Assembly: GCA_946407735.1 (NCBI GenBank)
Contig: CAMJPL010000003.1
Location: forward strand, 1-64,000
Direction of reading: 5' to 3'
Source: an uncultured Clostridia bacterium
Lineage (GTDB): Bacteria; Bacillota; Clostridia; Oscillospirales; CAG-272
DNA length: 64,000 nt
Shown here: positions 10,777-26,867 of the stretch, piece by piece
Numbering within the stretch: position 1 is the first letter of the stretch
Layout: each line of letters begins with the position of its first letter
Notes under the pieces: generated by a model
What the model saw: the letters and a program-made list of their open reading frames with translations, nothing else
What the model was told of the DNA's origin: nothing
Databases searched by the model: none
Made by a program: the position numbers and the translations under genes

Positions 10777-11379
10777 ATGAAATCTGATGTGATCCATCTG
10801 ACGAACGAAGGCGTCGGTTTCGACGACGCTCTCGCGCAGGCGGAGCTTGTCGCGAAGTTCAAGTCTCTGCCCGATAAAAGCGCTCTGCATCTCCGCCTTC
10901 TCACCGAGGAGATGGTCGGCATGATGCACGCTCTTACCGGCGAAAGAGAAGCCGATTTCTGGATCGACGACAAGGACGGCGTCTTCGCGCTCCATCTGCA
11001 GGCGCAGACGAACATGAACGCCGAGATGAGAAAGAATCTTCTCGCCGCCTCAAAGAGCGGATCGAATTCGGCCGCGAAGGGCATAGTCGGCAAGATGCGC
11101 GATCTGTTCGACCGCCTCATCGAGCCCGTCGACGGCGATATGTCCGGCGTGCTGGTCGGGCTCAACGTGAACTACGCGAACGCCGATTTCGGAAGCTATT
11201 CGGCGGCGCTCGCCGGACTCTGGACGCTGAACAATTATAAATCTGCGCTGAAAGAGGGACACGCCCCGCAGGAGAACTGGGACGAGCTTGAGAAATCCGT
11301 TATCGCCCGCCTCGCCGACGACGTTCAGATCGGCATCTCGGGACAGAATGTCGAAATGATCATATACAAGAAGTTCTGA
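10777..11379 (+). CDS. RsbW-like ATPase-fold protein (putative anti-sigma-type regulator)
   Basis: 200 residues, cytoplasmic. The segment LRLLTEEMVGMMHALTGE (about residues 39-56) looks like the N-box helix of GHKL/RsbW-type ATPases with Glu44-Glu45, followed by a beta-strand stretch ADFWIDD, and the C-terminus ends in a strand pair. The G1 and G2 boxes are not obvious, so ATP binding is uncertain. Placement directly before a STAS-domain antagonist gene (27 bp gap) and upstream of a second protein with STAS and HATPase domains argues for a partner-switching role. AAAGGAG lies 10 bp upstream of the start. It is the first gene of a five-gene run. Confidence 0.7.
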   Translation: MKSDVIHLTNEGVGFDDALAQAELVAKFKSLPDKSALHLRLLTEEMVGMMHALTGEREADFWIDDKDGVFALHLQAQTNMNAEMRKNLLAASKSGSNSAAKGIVGKMRDLFDRLIEPVDGDMSGVLVGLNVNYANADFGSYSAALAGLWTLNNYKSALKEGHAPQENWDELEKSVIARLADDVQIGISGQNVEMIIYKKF

Positions 11380-11406: not shown

Positions 11407-11703
11407 ATGACTATCACGAAAACACAGAACGGCGCCGCCCTGACAGTCAAGGTGGACGGAAGACTCGACACCATGACCGCGCCTCAGCTCGAGTCCGTCG
11501 TAAGCTCAGAGCTCGGCGGGATAGAGAAGCTCGTCTTCGATTTCGCCGATCTTGAGTACATCTCGTCCGCCGGTCTGCGCGTGCTTCTTTCCGCGCAGAA
11601 GACGATGAACTCGCAGGGGACCATGACCGTGAAGAACGTGAACGAGCTCGTCTCCGAGGTGTTCGAGGTCACCGGCTTCACCGATATACTGACCATCGAG
11701 TGA
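11407..11703 (+). CDS. STAS-domain anti-sigma factor antagonist
   Basis: 98 residues, a complete single STAS domain like SpoIIAA/RsbV. The phosphorylation loop FADLEYISSAGLRVLL has Ser53-Ser54; in SpoIIAA/RsbV the matching serine is phosphorylated by the cognate kinase to release or bind the anti-sigma factor. GGAGAATATAAAG precedes the ATG. The gene lies between the RsbW-like gene and a small secreted protein. It closely resembles the STAS domain at the N-terminus of the large fusion protein encoded 540 bp downstream, so the two may compete for the same partner (inference). Confidence 0.93.
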   Translation: MTITKTQNGAALTVKVDGRLDTMTAPQLESVVSSELGGIEKLVFDFADLEYISSAGLRVLLSAQKTMNSQGTMTVKNVNELVSEVFEVTGFTDILTIE

Positions 11704-11765: not shown

Positions 11766-12230
11766 GTGAAAACAATTATCTGTATCATTATGGCCGCTCT
11801 CGTAAGCGTCTCGATCGCCGTGTCGGGAGCCGCCATCGAGCGCATAACGCCCGTGAATACCGCCGCCGAAATGTCGGTATCGGATTTTAGCGGCTCCTAT
11901 GCCGCCGGAAGGGCTTCTGCCGAGATATCCTGCGGCGAAGACGGATCTGTCAGTATCGTCGTGAGATGGGGCAGCAGCGCCTGGACGACGGCCGTATGGA
12001 CGATGAGCGGCAAACTCGACTTTGAAACGATGACGCTCGAATATTCCGACTGCGTCAAAAAGACAGAGACATACGGCGATTCCGGGGAGCTTGAAAGCGC
12101 CGAGATATCGTTTGAGAACGGCAGCGGCCGTTTCGTCTTCGGCGTGGATATGAAGACCGTGACATGGTACGACGACAATTCCGATTTCGGGAGCCTCGAA
12201 TTCGAGAAGCTGCCCGATATTGAACCGTAA
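11766..12230 (+). CDS. Small secreted protein of unknown function
   Basis: 154 residues starting at GTG 11766 with GGAGG a few bases upstream. Residues 1-24 are a signal peptide ending AVSGAA, with no lipobox. The mature part (FSGSYAAGRASAEI, then VVRWGSSAWTTAVWTMSG) is a compact beta-rich domain that I have seen in clostridial cell-surface lipoproteins, but I cannot name the family. It is the only exported product inside an otherwise cytoplasmic partner-switching cluster and could be an external signal input or simply a passenger gene. Confidence 0.7.
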   Translation: MKTIICIIMAALVSVSIAVSGAAIERITPVNTAAEMSVSDFSGSYAAGRASAEISCGEDGSVSIVVRWGSSAWTTAVWTMSGKLDFETMTLEYSDCVKKTETYGDSGELESAEISFENGSGRFVFGVDMKTVTWYDDNSDFGSLEFEKLPDIEP

Positions 12231-12245
12231 CTGACTGCATCTGAT

Positions 12246-13814
12246 ATGAACAACGAACTGAAAACGATAGCCCTGTCCGGAAGGATCGATTCGCTCAACG
12301 CCGCGGAGACCGAAAAGCAGATACTTGACGACCTTCAGGGCATTTCCGGAGTCCCGCTTGTCTTCGACATGGAGAAGCTCGACTATATCTCGAGCGCCGG
12401 ACTCAGGGTCATACTGCGGCTCAAAAAGCAGTACCCGGACATCAGTATAATCAACGTGAAGCCGGAGGTCTATGAGATCCTCGAAATGACCGGCTTTACC
12501 GAGATGATGACGGTGGAAAAGGCGTACCGCGTCGTTTCGACGGAGGGCTGCGAGGAGATAGGCAGAGGCGCCAACGGCACGATATACAGGATAGACAGGG
12601 ACAATGTCGTCAAGGTCTACAACAACGCCGACGCGCTGGAAGATATACGGCATGAGCGCGAGGTCGCGAAGCTCGCTCTGATACTCGGCATCCCGACGGC
12701 CATATCGTACGACGTCGTCAGGGTCGGGGAAAGCTACGGCTCGGTCTTCGAGCTGCTCAACGCGAGATCGTTCTCAAAGATAATCGCGACCGAGCCTGAC
12801 AAGCTCGACTGGTGCGTCAGCGAGTACGTCAAGATGCTGAAAAAGATCCACGGCACCGTCGTCCCGGAGGGCAAGCTCCCGGACATGAGGGAGACGGTCA
12901 TCGGCTGGGCCGAATTCATGCGCCCGTATCTCCCTTCCGACGCCGCGGAGAAGCTGATCGGCCTCGTCAATGACGTCCCGCGTGACGATCACATGATCCA
13001 CGGCGATTATCATACGAAGAACCTCGAGCTGCAGGGCGACGAGGTGCTCATCATAGACATGGACACCCTCGCCGTCGGCAATCCGATTTTCGAGCTCGCG
13101 TCGATGTATAACTCGTTTATCGGCTTCTCCGAGATGAATCACGCAAACATCCTCAAATTCCAGGGTTTTGATTTCGAGACCGGAACGAAATTCTGGAAGA
13201 AGTCTCTCGCCGCCTATCTCGGCACCGACAGCGAGACCGTCATCGAAAGCGTCGAGGACAAGGCGAGGATCATCGGATACACCCGCATGATCCGCCGCTC
13301 GATCCGCCGCGGCGGCCTCGATGACGAAGAGAGAAGAAAAGAGATCGAGCACTGGAAAGGTGAGCTGCTGGAATTGCTTGAAAAGACAGACTCCCTCGTT
13401 TTCGGCGTGAGCGAGATCGAGGTCGAGGCCGATACCGAAAACCTCCCTCAGGTCCAGTCATTCGTCGAGGAGCATATCGCCGCGGCCGAATGCTCGCCCA
13501 AGGCGATGATGCAGATCGGCCTCGCGGTGGAGGAGATCTTCACCAACATCGCGAACTACGCCTACGCGCCCGACAAGGGCAAGGCGAAGGTGCGGGTAGA
13601 CGTGCTGAAGGATCCCGTCGCCGTGTCGATCACCTTCGTCGATCACGGCGTGCCGTACGATCCGCTCGCGAAGGACGATCCCGACCTTACGCTGTCGGCG
13701 GAGGACCGCGCCATCGGCGGTCTCGGCATATTCATGACGAAGAAGATAATGGACGACATAGTTTACGAATACCGCGACGGCCAGAATATCCTCACTCTCA
13801 GGAAGAATCTTTGA
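12246..13814 (+). CDS. STAS-phosphotransferase-HATPase fusion protein
   Basis: 522 residues, three complete domains. Residues 1-92 are a STAS domain with LDYISSAGLRVIL (Ser49-Ser50). Residues 100-375 are a kinase-fold phosphotransferase of the APH/choline-kinase type (TIGR02172-like): glycine-rich GRGANGTIY at 106-114, Lys123, catalytic HGDYHTKN with Asp254 and Asn259, and metal-binding IDMD with Asp271. Residues 390-522 are an RsbW-type ATPase: N-box VEEIFTNIANYAY (Glu429-430, Asn434), DHG at 466-468, GGLG at 491-494. Thus an anti-anti-sigma part, a small-molecule or protein kinase, and an anti-sigma-type kinase are on one chain. All catalytic residues look intact. The start is 15 bp after the secreted-protein gene. 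Confidence 0.93.
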   Translation: MNNELKTIALSGRIDSLNAAETEKQILDDLQGISGVPLVFDMEKLDYISSAGLRVILRLKKQYPDISIINVKPEVYEILEMTGFTEMMTVEKAYRVVSTEGCEEIGRGANGTIYRIDRDNVVKVYNNADALEDIRHEREVAKLALILGIPTAISYDVVRVGESYGSVFELLNARSFSKIIATEPDKLDWCVSEYVKMLKKIHGTVVPEGKLPDMRETVIGWAEFMRPYLPSDAAEKLIGLVNDVPRDDHMIHGDYHTKNLELQGDEVLIIDMDTLAVGNPIFELASMYNSFIGFSEMNHANILKFQGFDFETGTKFWKKSLAAYLGTDSETVIESVEDKARIIGYTRMIRRSIRRGGLDDEERRKEIEHWKGELLELLEKTDSLVFGVSEIEVEADTENLPQVQSFVEEHIAAAECSPKAMMQIGLAVEEIFTNIANYAYAPDKGKAKVRVDVLKDPVAVSITFVDHGVPYDPLAKDDPDLTLSAEDRAIGGLGIFMTKKIMDDIVYEYRDGQNILTLRKNL

Positions 13815-13832: not shown

Positions 13833-14699
13833 ATGATACAGAATCAGAAAAGTATCGATCTTCATATGCATTCCACCGCCTCGGACGGTACCGATACCCC
13901 GGATCAGATCCTCGATAAGGTAAGAAGATCGGGGCTCATGATGTTCTCGCTCACCGATCACGACGCTGTCAAGGGATGTTTTGACATAGCCGCAAGGCTC
14001 ATGGACGGCGATCCCGAGTTCATCACCGGCGCCGAATTCTCCTGCCGCGACGAGATGGGCAGATATCATATCCTGGGCTACAGGATTGACGCTGAGTCGT
14101 CCCCGGTGCGGAAGGTCCTTGAGACCGGACACGGCTATCGCATGACGAAGCTGCGGGAAAGACTTGAATTCCTCAAGACGCGGTACGGATTCTCGTTTTC
14201 GGACGAGGACACAAGGCAGCTGTACGCGAGGAACAATCCCGGGAAGCCGCATATAGCCAGACTGATGGTGAAGTACGGCTTCTCCGAATCGGTCGACGCC
14301 GCCTTCCGCGATTATCTGAATAAGATCGAGTCTCACAGCGGATATCTCCGCCCCGAGCAGGCGATTGAAGGGATCCTCGCCGGAGGGGGCATACCGGTTC
14401 TCGCGCATCCGGCATTCGGCAGCGGTAATCAGCGGATATACGGCGACGAGCTTGAGAAGCGTGTCGTCAGGTTGATGGGATTTGGTCTCAGAGGTCTTGA
14501 GGCCTTCTATTCGGGATTCGGCGCCGATATAACTGCCGGGCTGATCGGTCTTAGCGAGAGATACGGTCTTTACGTCACGGCGGGAAGCGATTATCACGGC
14601 ACGAGCAAGACGGTCGCCCTCGGCGATACCGGCTGCCTCGCGTCATCCGAAGTGCCGGATGGGATGAAGCGCTTTCTCTGCGACGTGCTTGACGGCTGA
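13833..14699 (+). CDS. PHP-domain phosphoesterase (TrpH/YciV-like)
   Basis: 288 residues. Metal-binding motifs of PHP phosphoesterases are in order: DLHMHSTASDGT at about 9-20, LTDHDAV near 40, GAEFSC near 68, HILGY, LAHPAFG near 193, and SDYHG near 250. Relatives hydrolyse 3',5'-nucleoside bisphosphates or RNA 5' ends with three metal ions in the cytoplasm. It follows the fusion gene by 18 bp and may be cotranscribed, perhaps by chance; a link with phosphorylation-based signalling is only inferred. Confidence 0.92.
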   Translation: MIQNQKSIDLHMHSTASDGTDTPDQILDKVRRSGLMMFSLTDHDAVKGCFDIAARLMDGDPEFITGAEFSCRDEMGRYHILGYRIDAESSPVRKVLETGHGYRMTKLRERLEFLKTRYGFSFSDEDTRQLYARNNPGKPHIARLMVKYGFSESVDAAFRDYLNKIESHSGYLRPEQAIEGILAGGGIPVLAHPAFGSGNQRIYGDELEKRVVRLMGFGLRGLEAFYSGFGADITAGLIGLSERYGLYVTAGSDYHGTSKTVALGDTGCLASSEVPDGMKRFLCDVLDG

Positions 14700-14861: not shown

Positions 14862-16355
14862 ATGAAAAAGACAGGCGCATTCCTGACGGCGTCGGCGATA
14901 CTCATTTCGGCGCTGCTTTCCGCATCATCCTTTGCCGAGCCCATCGCTGACAATTCGTCTGCGGCGATCGACAGAGCCGTCGTGCTCCAGACGCTGTACG
15001 AGAGAGAGGGCAGACCGGACACCGGCGGCGATTATCCGTTCGCCGACGCCGAAGGCACATGGTATTACACCGCGTCAGCGTGGGGAAGCTACGCCGGGAT
15101 CATACTCGGCGACGGCGAAGGGAACCTTCACGGCGACTGCCCGATCACTTACGCCGAGCTCGTGTCCATGCTTTACAGATACGCCCAGTATAAGGGCTAT
15201 GACGTTTCTGTCGGCGAGGATACCAATATCCTGAGCTACGACGACGCCTTCGAGATCCCCGGCTGGAGCATGGCCGCCTTCCAGTGGGCCTGCGGAGCCG
15301 GCGTCATGCCTGAGACGGGCAGCAGCCTGAATTATGACAAGACGGTCACGAGATCCGCTTTCGCCGAGATCCTCAGCCGCTTCACGAACGAGACCGCCCT
15401 TTCGCTCTGGACCGACGACGCCGAATCCAAAAACGAGCTCGTTTCCTATGTCAAGGCCGTCACCGATGAGACGAGCCCCGACTATATCCCCGTCGAGGAC
15501 CGCATAGCTGTGTTCGACTTCGACGGCACCCTGTTCTGCGAGACCGATCCCAACTACTTCGATTACTGCCTGCTGAAATACCGCGTGCTCGACGATCCCG
15601 ACTATAAGGACAAGGCCTCCGATTTCGAGCGCGAGGTCGCCCTCAAGATCAAGGATCAGAATGAAAACGGCACCTCCTATTCCGGACTCGAGGTCGACCA
15701 CGGAAAGGCCGTAGCCTCCGCCTTCTCAGGGATGACGCTTGACGAGTTCAACAGCTATATCCAGCAGTTCAAGGCGCATGAGATGCCCTCCTACGACGGT
15801 ATGACCAGAGGCGGCGGCTTCTACAAGCCGATGGTCGAGGTCGTTGAGTATCTCCAGAAGAACGACTTCACCGTTTATATCGTCAGCGGCACCGACCGTC
15901 TGATCGTGCGCGGGATCATGTACGAAAACGTCCTTGACATCCCGAACAGTCAGATCATCGGCTCCGACGAGATCATCGTCGCCAGCAATCAGGGAGAGAC
16001 CGACGGCCTGAATTACGTCTTCACCGACAGCGACGAGCTTATCCTCGGCGGCGAGTTCATCATAAAGAACCTCAAGATGAACAAGGTCTCCGTCATCATG
16101 CAGGAGATCGGTCAGCAGCCGGTCCTCTCCTTCGGCAACAGCACCGGCGACGCCAGCATGGCTGAGTACGTCATAACTGGGAATAAGTATAAGAGCCTCG
16201 CCTTCATGCTCTGCTGCGACGATACCGTCCGTGAGAACGGCAATGAGGGCAAGGCCGACAAGATGTACGCTCTCTGCGACGAATTCGGCTGGATCCCGGT
16301 ATCTATGAAAAACGACTGGGTTACGATTTACGGCGACATGGTCGTAAAGCACTGA
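14862..16355 (+). CDS. SLH-domain surface protein with HAD phosphatase domain
   Basis: 497 residues. Residues 1-26 are a signal peptide (cut after SFA). Residues about 60-115 and 125-175 resemble S-layer homology repeats (FADAEGTWYYTAS, ITYAELVSMLYRYA; then IPGWSMAAFQWACGAGV, VTRSAFAEILSRF). From residue 215 a haloacid-dehalogenase phosphatase follows: nucleophile motif AVFDFDGTLF with Asp219 and Asp221, motif II YIVSGTD, and motif IV FGNSTGDASM. It should be a phosphatase displayed on the cell wall, releasing phosphate from outside substrates. AGGAG lies 8 bp before the ATG. Preceded by a possible terminator and followed 29 bp later by an alpha/beta hydrolase gene. Confidence 0.88.
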   Translation: MKKTGAFLTASAILISALLSASSFAEPIADNSSAAIDRAVVLQTLYEREGRPDTGGDYPFADAEGTWYYTASAWGSYAGIILGDGEGNLHGDCPITYAELVSMLYRYAQYKGYDVSVGEDTNILSYDDAFEIPGWSMAAFQWACGAGVMPETGSSLNYDKTVTRSAFAEILSRFTNETALSLWTDDAESKNELVSYVKAVTDETSPDYIPVEDRIAVFDFDGTLFCETDPNYFDYCLLKYRVLDDPDYKDKASDFEREVALKIKDQNENGTSYSGLEVDHGKAVASAFSGMTLDEFNSYIQQFKAHEMPSYDGMTRGGGFYKPMVEVVEYLQKNDFTVYIVSGTDRLIVRGIMYENVLDIPNSQIIGSDEIIVASNQGETDGLNYVFTDSDELILGGEFIIKNLKMNKVSVIMQEIGQQPVLSFGNSTGDASMAEYVITGNKYKSLAFMLCCDDTVRENGNEGKADKMYALCDEFGWIPVSMKNDWVTIYGDMVVKH

Positions 16356-22452: not shown

Positions 22453-23991
22453 TCATTTGTCTATCCGTTTGTCTTCGATGCCGCCGAGGATATGATGGCA
22501 GGCGACGAAGTGGTTCGGGCGCGCTTCGACCAGCTCCGGCGTTATTTTGGTGCATACGTCGGTGCAGTATTTGCATCTGGTGTGGAATTTGCAGCCCTGA
22601 GGCGGATTTACTGGAGAAGGTATGTCGCCCTCAAGGATCACCAGCTCGCGGTTGTCGTCGACGTTGGTGGTGGGGATGGCCGAAAGAAGCGCTTCGGTGT
22701 ATGGGTGCATCGGATGATCGAAGAGCTCCTGCGAGTCGGACAGCTCGACGATGTTTCCGAGATACATGACGCCTATGCGGTCGGAGATATACTTTACGAC
22801 CGAGAGGTCATGCGTTATGAAGAGATATGTGAGATTGTTCTTTTCCTTGAGATCCTGCAGCAGATTGATGATCTGCGACTGGATCGAAACGTCGAGAGCC
22901 GAGACCGCCTCGTCGCAGATTACGAATTTCGGCGATGTCGACAGAGCTCTCGCGATGCCGATCCTCTGGCGCTGACCGCCGGAGAACTGATGCGGGTATC
23001 TGTGGATGAAATACGGCGCGAGACCGCACATCTCCATGATTTTCAATACCTCATCCTTGAGCCTCGGGCTGTTTTTCCTGAAATAGCCGTGAGCCTCCAT
23101 GCCCTCGCCGATGATCTGGCCGACCGTCATGCGGGGGTTGAGGGAAGAGTAGGGATCCTGGAAGATGAGCTGCAGATCGCTGCGCAGCTCGCGCATCTCT
23201 TCAGTCGTGAGGCGGGCGAGGTCGATACCGCCGTCGCGGTGAGCCTCGTGCTTCTGGAATTCAGGGTCGGCGGAGTACTTTGCCCGAAGCTGATTCACCT
23301 CGGCGTGAGCGGCGGTGAGCTCTTTTTTCAGTTCGGCCAGCTGGTCGTCGATGGCCTTGACCTTCGCTTTTCTCCCGGCGATCTTCAAGTCAGAGTTCTT
23401 TCCGTTTTCCTTTTCGTACTCGGCGTCGGCAAGCGCCGATTCGGCGGCGAGCTTTTTCGCGTTCAGTTCTCTGTTCTTGCGGGCGAGTTTGTAGACGTTC
23501 ATGTAGGCGTTCTGGATGCTCTCGGTATCGTCGACCGCCGCGAAGCCGCCGAAGATATTGGCGATGAGCATGTACATGGCGTCTGCGTCGCGCTTGGCCT
23601 GTCTGAGCTCCTCGTGCTTTTCGCTCTTCTCGTTTTCGGGGCAGCTGTCGAAAGCCTCCTGCGCCGCGTCCCTCTTCTCTATGAGCTTTTTCAGCTGGGC
23701 CTTTTTATGAGGGAGATGCAGTATCGTGTCCTTGACATAGCTCGGCGCGAGATCGTCGAGCGAGCGGCCGTAATACATGGTCTGCCCGTCCGTCTGACGG
23801 TACAGCTCGAGGATCGTCCGCCCGAATGTCGACTTGCCGCATCCGCTCTCGCCGACGAGACCGAGAGTTTCGCCCTCGTATATATTGACGTCGATGCCGT
23901 CGTTGGCTTTGACGTACATCCCCTTCTTCTTGAGAGGGAAGTACTGCTTGAGGTTTGTTATCTTTAAGAGAACCTTCTTATTGTCCGCCAT
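22453..23991 (-). CDS. oppF: Oligopeptide ABC transporter ATP-binding protein OppF with helical insertion
   Basis: 512 residues, much longer than the usual 310-350. The ATPase core is complete: Walker A GESGCGKST at 47-55, Q-loop FQDPYSSLNPR near 278, signature FSGGQRQR at 336-343, Walker B VICDE at 357-361, and H-loop THD near 394. The extra length is a charged, coiled-coil-like insertion at about residues 85-265 between Walker A and the Q-loop. The C-terminal OppD/F domain contains four cysteines at 467, 473, 476 and 480, as in homologs where they can hold an iron-sulfur cluster. It powers peptide import with OppD and overlaps oppD by 14 bp. Confidence 0.95.
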   Translation of the reverse strand: MADNKKVLLKITNLKQYFPLKKKGMYVKANDGIDVNIYEGETLGLVGESGCGKSTFGRTILELYRQTDGQTMYYGRSLDDLAPSYVKDTILHLPHKKAQLKKLIEKRDAAQEAFDSCPENEKSEKHEELRQAKRDADAMYMLIANIFGGFAAVDDTESIQNAYMNVYKLARKNRELNAKKLAAESALADAEYEKENGKNSDLKIAGRKAKVKAIDDQLAELKKELTAAHAEVNQLRAKYSADPEFQKHEAHRDGGIDLARLTTEEMRELRSDLQLIFQDPYSSLNPRMTVGQIIGEGMEAHGYFRKNSPRLKDEVLKIMEMCGLAPYFIHRYPHQFSGGQRQRIGIARALSTSPKFVICDEAVSALDVSIQSQIINLLQDLKEKNNLTYLFITHDLSVVKYISDRIGVMYLGNIVELSDSQELFDHPMHPYTEALLSAIPTTNVDDNRELVILEGDIPSPVNPPQGCKFHTRCKYCTDVCTKITPELVEARPNHFVACHHILGGIEDKRIDK

Positions 23992-24997
23992 TCTTGCGAG
24001 CCTCCTTGTCGGGATAGAAGCACCGTATCTCCTGAGTGTCGGATATGCGGGTCATTTTCGGCTCTTCGCCGCGGCATCTGTCGGTCGCGTATTTGCAGCG
24101 CGGCGCGAATTTGCAGCCCTTCGGAAGATCGAGCGGATGAGGTACCGAGCCGGGAATGGCTTCAAGGCGCTGATTGGCAGGCGTGTCGAGGCGCGGGATC
24201 GATACCATGAGCCCTTCGGTGTAAGGATGGGAATATCTGGTCTTCGGATCGAACAGGACCTTCGCCGGGACGCGCTCGACGACCTGTCCGCAGTACATGA
24301 CCGCGACATAGTCGGCCATCTGGTTGATGACGCCGAGATCGTGAGTGATGAACAGTATGCTGGTGCCGAACTCCTTCTTCAGATCGTTCATCAGCCTCAG
24401 CACCTGCGCCTGGATCGTCACGTCGAGAGCCGTCGTCGGCTCGTCGGCGATGAGCAGCTTGGGACGGCAGGCGAGGGCCATGGCTATCATGACGCGCTGG
24501 CGCATACCGCCGGATAGCTGATGCGGATACTGCTTGACGACGATCTCGGGGTTCGGTATCTTTACGTCGCGCAGGATCTCGACCGACTTTTTGGCCGCCT
24601 GCTTCTTGTCCATGTTCTGATGGACGATGAAGACCTCGGACAGCTGCTTCTCTATCGTGAATACCGGGTTGAGCGAGGTCATCGGCTCCTGGAAGATGAC
24701 CGAGATCTCGTTGCCGCGGACCTCGTACATCTCGTCCATCGAGATCTTGGTAAGATCTCTGCCGTTGAAGATTATCTCGCCGCTGTCGATATAGCCGTTG
24801 CCGTCGAGCAGACGGAGGATGCTCATCGCCGATACGCTCTTGCCGGAGCCTGATTCGCCGACTATGCCGAGGGTCTCGCCCTCGCGGACACTGTATGAGG
24901 TGTTGTTGACCGCCTTCACGACGCCGCGGCGGGTGGTGAAGAAGGTATGGAGGTCCTTGACTTCAAGAAGGTATTTTTTATCGCTTGTTTCTGACAT
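23978..24997 (-). CDS. oppD: Oligopeptide ABC transporter ATP-binding protein OppD
   Basis: 339 residues, normal length. Walker A GESGSGKS at 48-55, Q-loop [10 protein letters not shown] near 103, signature LSGGMRQR near 161, Walker [13 protein letters not shown] near 181 and H-loop THDLG near 217, then the C-terminal Opp/Dpp domain with [14 protein letters not shown]. It pairs with OppF on the cytoplasmic side of OppB/OppC. The gene begins 10 bp after oppC and overlaps oppF by 14 bp, so the two ATPases are likely translated together. Confidence 0.97.
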
Positions 24998-25007
24998 AAC
25001 AGCCTCC

Positions 25008-26867
25008 TTATCTGCCGTTGGCCTTGGGATCGAGCGCGTCGCGCAGACCGTCGCCGATCAGGTTGATGCAGATACACGCTATACCGAATATCGCGCCGAC
25101 GAAGACCCAGTTCCACCAGTAGTTCTGGATGACGATGGAGTTCTTCGCGTTATCAAGCATGTTGCCCCATGTCGGAGTCGGAAGCGGAACGCCGAATCCG
25201 AGATACGACAGGGAGGACTCGGTCAGCATGGATGTTCCGAAGGCGAGCGTGATCGAAACAAGGCATACCGACATGACATTCGGGATTATATGGCTGAATA
25301 TGATCTTCGATTCCTTGACGCCGAGCGCCTTCGCTGCGATGACGTACTCCATCTCGCGCTGGGCGAACATCTGCGCTCTTACGAGGCGGCAGAGGCCGGG
25401 CCATGACAGGATGCCGAGGATGACCATGATGATGTACATCCTCTGCTCGACCGAGACCCTTGTGCCCATGACGGCGGACAGGATCATGGCGAACGGGATG
25501 AACGGCATCGAGGAAACGATCTCCGCGATCCTCATGACCACCATATCCACGACTCCGCCGAAATATCCGGCGATACCGCCGAGGATGATGCCGATGATCA
25601 TCTCGATCACGACGGACAGCGCTCCAATCGTCATAGTCATCCTGCCGCCGTTGACGAGGCGGGAGAATACGTCGCGTCCGAGGCCGTCGGTTCCGAATAT
25701 GAAGCCCTTAAGGCCCCATGTTCGGATCTCGCCGTCCTTCTGCAGGGCGTAATTCTGGAACGATCCGACGAATATGTCCTCGACTTCGCCCAGATTCTCC
25801 GGGACGCTGGTCTGATTGTAGCGCGTGCCGCCCCAGGATACGACGCTTCCGTTCTCGAGCAGGGCAGTGTAATGATAACGTCCGCCGGCGATCTTCTTTA
25901 TCGGGGAAGTGAACTGCGGGATGCTGTTTTCGCCCTTCACCGAGTTGCCCCAGATCCTGAGGCTTCCGTCCTCGAGCAGGGCGAGTATCGAGCTCGAGGA
26001 GCCGGTTATCGCCTTTACGTTCGATCCGAGATCATCGGGAACGCGCTGCTCGGAGAATTTGGGGGCGAAGCCGCCCATGGTGACGGTGCCGTCGTCGAGG
26101 AGGATGACGTATGTGAAGTTCGTGACGGCGGCGGAAACGACGTGCCCGTCGTATTTCTCGGCGTCATAGTCTATATCGGCGAGGTTGGAGTTTCCCCATG
26201 TGAACAGCCGCCCGTCGTCGGTGACGACGACCGAGAACTGGTTCGCGGCGTGGATCTCCTTTATGCCGAACTCATGGAGGCGGTTGTTCGATTTCAGCTC
26301 GGAGGGAAGAGTGGTCTGCCCGAGACGGTCGCTGCCCCACGCGTAGATCGTTCCCTGATCGTCGAGGGCGAGAGCGTGATCGGCTCCGGCTGCGACCTTA
26401 ACGATCTTCGCGCTGCTGACTTCCTCGGGTATATTGCCGAGATCTATCACCTTTGTGAGCTTGGCCTTGCCCCATACGTAGATCTTTCCGTTTTTGTCGG
26501 CTCCGACCGAGTAGTTGTTTCCGACGGCTATGTCGGCCACTCCGTTTTCCTTCAGTTCGGACGGGTATTTCATCATGTTGCTGCCCGGCGACACGAAGAC
26601 GAGCGTCGAGTCCTGCTCACCGAGATCGAGAGTCACGAAATGAGGCGCTATGAATACGAACAGGGCTATGATGATGAACACTATCAGAGCCACCACGGCC
26701 GTCGGCTTCGAGAAGAAGTTGCGCACGACGACGCGGAACGGGCTCTGCATCTGCTCCTCGGCGTAGATATCTAGCTCCTTGTTCGGGAAGAAGAGTCTGC
26801 GTATCCAGCGGAAGAGGAAGAATTCTTTTTTCGCGGCGGCGGAGCCGTTATTGCTTTTGTTATCCAT
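25008..26867 (-). CDS. oppC: Oligopeptide ABC transporter permease OppC with RCC1 propeller insertion
   Basis: 619 residues, twice the normal 280-320. Residues 1-56 are cytoplasmic and basic, TM1 is about 57-77, and the usual permease resumes at FGTDGLGRDVFSRL (391-404) with five more membrane segments and the EAA loop AAKALGVKESKIIFSHIIPN at 511-530. Between them, residues 108-387, lie seven repeats of the RCC1 type, each ending in a WG- or GG-like turn: IYVWG, IYAWG, LFTWG, VTMGG, LRIWG, VVSWG, IRTWG. Seven repeats are what a closed seven-bladed propeller needs. The loop between TM1 and TM2 is outside the cell, so the propeller should face OppA or the substrate. Gene spacing of 10-12 bp on both sides shows a tight operon. 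Confidence 0.95.
   Translation of the reverse strand: MDNKSNNGSAAAKKEFFLFRWIRRLFFPNKELDIYAEEQMQSPFRVVVRNFFSKPTAVVALIVFIIIALFVFIAPHFVTLDLGEQDSTLVFVSPGSNMMKYPSELKENGVADIAVGNNYSVGADKNGKIYVWGKAKLTKVIDLGNIPEEVSSAKIVKVAAGADHALALDDQGTIYAWGSDRLGQTTLPSELKSNNRLHEFGIKEIHAANQFSVVVTDDGRLFTWGNSNLADIDYDAEKYDGHVVSAAVTNFTYVILLDDGTVTMGGFAPKFSEQRVPDDLGSNVKAITGSSSSILALLEDGSLRIWGNSVKGENSIPQFTSPIKKIAGGRYHYTALLENGSVVSWGGTRYNQTSVPENLGEVEDIFVGSFQNYALQKDGEIRTWGLKGFIFGTDGLGRDVFSRLVNGGRMTMTIGALSVVIEMIIGIILGGIAGYFGGVVDMVVMRIAEIVSSMPFIPFAMILSAVMGTRVSVEQRMYIIMVILGILSWPGLCRLVRAQMFAQREMEYVIAAKALGVKESKIIFSHIIPNVMSVCLVSITLAFGTSMLTESSLSYLGFGVPLPTPTWGNMLDNAKNSIVIQNYWWNWVFVGAIFGIACICINLIGDGLRDALDPKANGR

Follow-up and report, generated by a model that had tools for sequence, protein, structure and literature searches.

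The 64,000-nucleotide stretch of clostridial DNA analyzed here (the window) encodes a protein that carries a STAS domain, an APH-type kinase domain and an RsbW-type HATPase domain, in this order, on one chain (Table 1). The fusion is widespread in gut and rumen Clostridia. On balance, we favor the view that it belongs to a sigma-factor-independent partner switch, with the switch domains built into the effectors and an APH kinase and a transporter controlled directly. Textbook partner switches regulate sigma factors; their parts occur here in a genome in which no SigB/F/G-type sigma factor was found, and they are fused to an enzyme and to transporters.

Table 1. Features of the fusion locus, and the SDF symporter encoded elsewhere in the same genome (G000)
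Feature	Position	Strand	Details
STAS-APH-HATPase fusion protein	12246–13814	+	522 aa; ATG start, TGA stop
STAS domain, residues 7–92	12264–12521	+	Motif YISSAGL; PF01740 1.8e-13
Ser50, predicted phospho-acceptor of the fused STAS	codon 12393–12395		
APH/TIGR02172-like kinase domain, about residues 103–381	12552–13388	+	Pfam, NCBIfam, Foldseek
Kinase-domain motifs			GRGANG 106–111, K123, HGDYHTKN 252–259, IDMD 270–273
RsbW/SpoIIAB-type HATPase, residues 390–522	13413–13811	+	PF13581 7.2e-25
HATPase motifs of the fusion			E430/N434, D466-x-G468, GGLG 491–494
200-aa protein, RsbW-like fold, degenerate nucleotide site	10777–11379	+	AlphaFold/Foldseek, alignment, neighborhoods
Free STAS protein	11407–11703	+	98 aa; YISSAGL, Ser54 predicted phospho-acceptor; PF01740 7e-15
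Possible small secreted protein, family unassigned	11766–12230	+	154 aa; GTG start
PHP-domain phosphoesterase	13833–14699	+	Nearest 3',5'-nucleoside bisphosphate phosphatase, 115 bits (cut-off 400)
SDF symporter	G000:C32, about 23528–25111 (L160:5529–7112)	-	Outside the operon of the fusion

Domain architecture and conservation of the fusion protein

The domain order was assigned by Pfam/NCBIfam and by AlphaFold/Foldseek, and all three Pfam domains exceed their curated cut-offs. Residues 103–291 match the APH family (PF01636, 3.2e-12, 47 bits against a cut-off of 23) and residues 394–520 match HATPase_c_2 (PF13581). The nearest NCBIfam family of the middle domain is TIGR02172 (1.1e-27; 97 bits, below the cut-off of 228), and the termini are nearest to ant_ant_sig, RsbW and SpoIIAB; the HATPase falls below the equivalog cut-offs of both RsbW (33 against 145 bits) and SpoIIAB (18.9 against 135). 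Structural similarity search with the AlphaFold model (30 homologues as input, mean pLDDT 82.9) using Foldseek returned APH(2''), APH(4), choline kinase and MTR kinase as the top matches of the middle domain, and SpoIIAB (1th8, TMt 0.79) for the C-terminus; one RsbV/RsbW entry was also among the matches. The profile matches, the HxDxxxxN and D-x-D residues and the Foldseek matches place the middle domain in the APH phosphotransferase fold family (PF01636), so that its kinase-like nature, claimed earlier from the letters of the window, is confirmed. It is flanked by linkers of only about 10 residues on each side.

One scan of GTDB species genomes yielded 308 loci encoding relatives of the fusion. 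The best 80 of these cover essentially the whole protein at 69–75% identity; their source assemblies belong to Clostridia and other Bacillota, and most of the assembly titles point to ruminants. The identical domain order in all 80 rules out an assembly artefact or a chance ORF; the three-domain arrangement is thus common. In an alignment of 80 sequences (the window and homologues, 64–96% pairwise identity), S49 and S50 of the STAS domain, K123, D254-Y-H-T, N259 and D271-M-D273 of the APH domain, and E429, E430, N434, D466 and G468 of the HATPase are invariant, and GGLG is kept in 79–80 of the 80. The conservation of all three sites argues for the use of all three activities.

The sequence-only reading, which had proposed the three fused domains with their catalytic signatures retained, is therefore borne out by HMM, fold and the 80 sequences, with two corrections at the residue level. 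Its Asp254, Asn259, Asp271, Asp466-Gly468 and GGLG are present, whereas the E-x3-N rule of GHKL kinases assigns the catalytic glutamate, given as Glu429, to E430, with N434 as partner. All of the motifs E-x3-N (E430/N434), D-x-G (D466-H-G468) and GxG (GGLG) are intact. The same reading had also offered Ser49/50 jointly; S50 rather than S49 is the predicted phospho-acceptor by alignment to SpoIIAA, in which we take Ser58 within MDSSGLG to be the corresponding residue. A YISSAGL-type phospho-serine motif is shared by the free STAS and most relatives.

Partner-switch genes around the fusion and across relatives

In the window, the 200-aa protein, the free STAS, the possible small secreted protein, the fusion and the PHP phosphoesterase follow one another on the same strand with gaps of 15–62 bases. 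The free STAS and an RsbW-like neighbor had both been named earlier; the former stands, and the latter holds in fold but not in its nucleotide site. By sequence, the 200-aa protein has no family match, and its own family recurs adjoining the free STAS in relatives. The top seven Foldseek matches of its model (mean pLDDT 72) are SpoIIAB/UsfX (TM 0.62–0.69 on the target, E from 3.5e-3), with SiaB also among the matches, and the alignment shows an E-E pair without the N-box Asn and the G-boxes. On this model, we accept it as a probable RsbW-like fold without a recognizable nucleotide site; an active RsbW is ruled out by sequence (no family match, hhalign probability 1–4%). Homologues of the small secreted candidate occur in loci L009, L028 and L063. 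Further along the window, at 14862–16355, NCBIfam gave no match for a 497-aa protein that, by eye, has an apparent signal peptide and joins an SLH-like part at its N-terminus to a HAD-phosphatase-like part at its C-terminus.

HMM scans near the fusion in the 80 loci revealed 65 free STAS proteins, 55 PHP phosphoesterases, 43 PP2Cs, 20 DUF218 proteins, 15 MATE-HATPase hits and 11 members of the 200-aa protein family; almost all of them lie on the same strand as the fusion. The PHP gene, directly 3' of the fusion in the window, is thus present in most fusion loci, and PP2C genes frequently adjoin or overlap the fusion start in relatives. No sigma gene was found among these recurrent neighbors, and none was noticed in the split loci inspected. 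PADLOC gave no match for the fusion or three neighbors, and an anti-phage defense reading was dropped.

The fusion locus holds both STAS domains of the window's genome (3.57 Mb, 93% complete); an own-genome search found only the free STAS besides the fused one. The genome's sole RsbW-type HATPase above the cut-off is that of the fusion, and weak HATPase_c_2 matches on contigs C88 and C5 were set aside as histidine kinases. The single SpoIIE-type PP2C is a dCache-HAMP-PP2C protein on contig C1, outside the fusion operon, with SiaA as its nearest named relative (91 bits, cut-off 700). Compared by eye to the AI-2-sensing motif (PMC9540692), that of its dCache domain looks incomplete. In relatives, very long SpoIIE-containing frames (about 1300 aa) occur at G043:C21:5902-6474 and G053:C120:18106-18672.

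Co-occurrence was analyzed in the window's genome and 96 relatives (97 in all); the fusion profile matches strongly in 23 of these. The full fusion occurs in six of the 23, STAS-APH with no HATPase on the chain in eight, and HATPase and STAS parts, the core, with no APH in nine. In the eight split genomes the HATPase lies elsewhere, either as a gene of ~140 aa, often next to a STAS gene, or behind a PP2C in a fusion. STAS-APH is accompanied by a HATPase and by this class of PP2C in 14/14 genomes. This distribution suggests that the core can do without APH, which would be its client and not its sensor, and the comparative evidence fits APH as the output of the switch better than as its input.

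RsbW-like domains are also found on transporters. MATE transporters with a C-terminal RsbW-type HATPase_c_2 domain (e.g. L063:8531-10300 and L072:1552-3333) share operons with the fusion, and the order in L072 is PP2C, MATE-HATPase, fusion and PHP. SDF symporters in L004, L006, L021, L130, L132 and L156 have a degenerate N-terminal HATPase-like domain with E-E, 'YDPL' and 'GxNxL' motifs, whose link to the fusion HATPase is moderate (hhalign probability 71, E 3.6e-5). The only SDF (dicarboxylate-type) symporter of the window's genome carries an N-terminal RsbW-like extension of ~120 aa, which scores 5.9e-45 in a profile search whose query alignment included this very sequence. MATE-HATPase occurs in 10 of the 97 genomes (weak and broken in G093) and HATPase-like-SDF in 4, never both together. 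Fisher tests on this set treat genomes as independent and somewhat overstate significance, the separation itself being complete: the PP2C class (at least 150 bits) is present in 22/23 system genomes and 0/74 others (6.7e-21), and one or the other transporter fusion in 14/23 and 0/74 (2.9e-11). At L130:5430-13762, RelA_SpoT synthetase-like and HD_4 genes stand beside a free STAS and a HATPase-like-SDF symporter, followed by a multidomain condensation/AMP-binding/reductase gene.

Altogether, the fusion system has, by sequence, the features of a partner switch: intact HATPase motifs, a STAS serine at the predicted position of SpoIIAA Ser58, and a cognate-type PP2C. As an anti-sigma equivalog it misses the cut-offs, and no SigB/F/G-type sigma factor was found in its genome.

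Proposed mechanism and alternative readings

We propose a model that includes phosphotransfer, the binding partners and the direction of regulation, all of which we infer. Within the fusion, the HATPase would act as the kinase and be opposed by the membrane dCache-HAMP-PP2C; their targets would be two serines, Ser50 in the fused STAS and Ser54 in the free one. Phosphorylated STAS domains would not hold the HATPase. Once the phosphatase fires, dephosphorylated STAS, own or free, would dock onto the HATPase and onto RsbW-like domains of other proteins, and docking would make the attached APH-type kinase and, in the window's genome, the SDF symporter more or less active. Through fusion in cis, one STAS would be locally more concentrated, while the free STAS and RsbW-like pseudo-enzymes would compete in trans. 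Docking within a dimer seems likelier than within one chain, because the linkers beside APH are so short. Beyond this genome, we tentatively suggest that gut and rumen Clostridia possess a class of partner switch not described before, in which phospho-switch domains are spread over an APH-family kinase, MATE-HATPase and HATPase-like-SDF proteins, and one PP2C sensor gates a metabolic kinase and a transporter by docking, without a sigma factor.

The best surviving alternative, which we nevertheless consider unlikely, is an anti-sigma switch with an odd target, in which the HATPase binds RpoD or an ECF, STAS releases the sigma factor and APH acts as a metabolite-tuned middle regulator. The genome encodes RpoD and about 17 ECFs, and the fusion HATPase best matches SpoIIAB/RsbW. 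However, the SigBFG model gave one match, whose value of 1.3e-41 is at RpoD level; in most relatives the corresponding value is 1e-60 or better. Most system-bearing relatives do carry SigBFG-type sigma factors, and at 93% completeness such a gene may be missing from the assembly; yet G004, G008 and G023 also combine the system with matches at RpoD level only, and together with the window's genome and G031 (76% complete) they are the only system genomes without a SigBFG-type sigma factor. As these matches stay at RpoD level in the window's genome and in some other system genomes, a SigB/F-type target of the HATPase is unlikely, and a sigma factor as target, supposed at the outset, is not supported. 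With no sigma gene among the recurrent neighbors either, a canonical SigB/F operon is ruled out. To our knowledge, no HATPase_c_2 anti-sigma factor of an ECF is known, and the anti-sigma reading leaves the transporter fusions unexplained. A precedent for control of a primary sigma factor exists in Chlamydia, where an Rsb network is reported to control its availability (PMC4552016). As a separate observation, L089, L091 and L090 (contigs C13, C14 and C77 of the window's genome) show very long frames of about 860–885 aa that carry an ECF-type sigma factor at the N-terminus, followed by uncharacterized C-terminal parts.

Less probable still is a closed circuit, close to the self-contained switch first envisaged, in which the HATPase phosphorylates its own STAS in cis, APH senses a rate-setting metabolite and the free STAS merely competes. 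The invariance of all three sites would suit it, and precedents are Rv1364c, reported both to add phosphate to its own STAS domain and to remove it (PMC7693655), and CapK, with STAS and a GHKL kinase on one chain (PMC13373217). However, HATPase and STAS-APH are separate genes in relatives, so action in trans suffices; there the HATPase stands alone or fused to PP2C, and the system comes with a sensor PP2C of its own. The short linkers would also disfavor strictly intramolecular docking relative to trans docking in a dimer. The accompanying idea of competition between cis and trans partners is plausible, as STAS partners of both kinds are present.

Under the direct-control model, the APH output probably acts on a small-molecule substrate, a protein substrate being the less probable option though a serious one. 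HD_4 and PHP phosphohydrolases suggest small phosphorylated metabolites: in the more distant relatives G341 and G488 an HD_4-like domain (HD part by eye) replaces STAS ahead of the same APH, and in L118 and L119 STAS-APH and HATPase are separated by an HD_4 gene. Frames at L148:4586-6100 and L149:4980-6602 have an HD_4-like (SpoT-type) domain, by eye, in place of STAS before the same APH kinase family. That APH instead forms a double-kinase module as a protein kinase of STAS proteins or other partners is improbable: its Gly-rich loop GxGxxGxxY and VVKVY lysine look protein-kinase-like and relatives give weak Bud32/Rio1 matches, but the best structural matches, the Pfam APH and TIGR02172 assignments and these phosphohydrolases point elsewhere.

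Comparison with known partner switches

The middle domain shares the fold and the HGDxxxxN/D-x-D signatures of TIGR02172/APH (PF01636) kinases but scores below the TIGR02172 cut-off, and we know of no such kinase fused to switch domains. In the open-licence literature collection searched, no description of STAS-APH-HATPase, MATE-HATPase or HATPase-like-SDF proteins was found. If the proposed model is true, a post-translational serine-phosphorylation circuit would control both metabolism and transport in gut bacteria that are known chiefly through metagenome assemblies. The naturally occurring split and fused versions are ready constructs to ask whether fusion in cis shields a switch from partners in trans.

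Similar to SpoIIAA/SpoIIAB and RsbV/RsbW of Bacillus, the system combines a phospho-serine STAS, a GHKL HATPase with E-x3-N and G-boxes, and a PP2C partner; it differs in that no SigB/F/G-type gene was found in the window's genome, STAS and HATPase are joined to APH, and HATPase-type domains sit on transporters. A sigma-free partner switch with enzyme output is known in SiaABCD of Pseudomonas aeruginosa, whose SiaA is the nearest named PP2C; by contrast, a diguanylate cyclase serves as its output, SiaB and SiaC are two individual proteins, and fusions to APH, PHP or transporters are lacking (PMC7647112). CapK/CapS and VapKSC share STAS and a GHKL kinase on one chain, a phosphorylated STAS partner and sigma independence, but have no APH, with a repressor or a PIN toxin as output (PMC13373217). 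The fusion does not match a CapK-type HTH-STAS-GHKL chain beside an immune operon, as Pfam found no HTH in it and PADLOC gave no match. Rv1364c of Mycobacterium tuberculosis likewise joins kinase and anti-anti-sigma domains on one chain and auto-phosphorylates its STAS; however, it carries a sensor and PP2C on the chain as well, has no APH and interacts with SigF in vitro (PMC7693655). STAS and GHKL on one chain (Rv1364c, CapK/VapK) and sigma-free switches (SiaABCD) are thus already known, whereas the architectures of the fusion and the transporters suggest that a classic sigma-factor switch has been rewired for the direct control of an enzyme and of transport.
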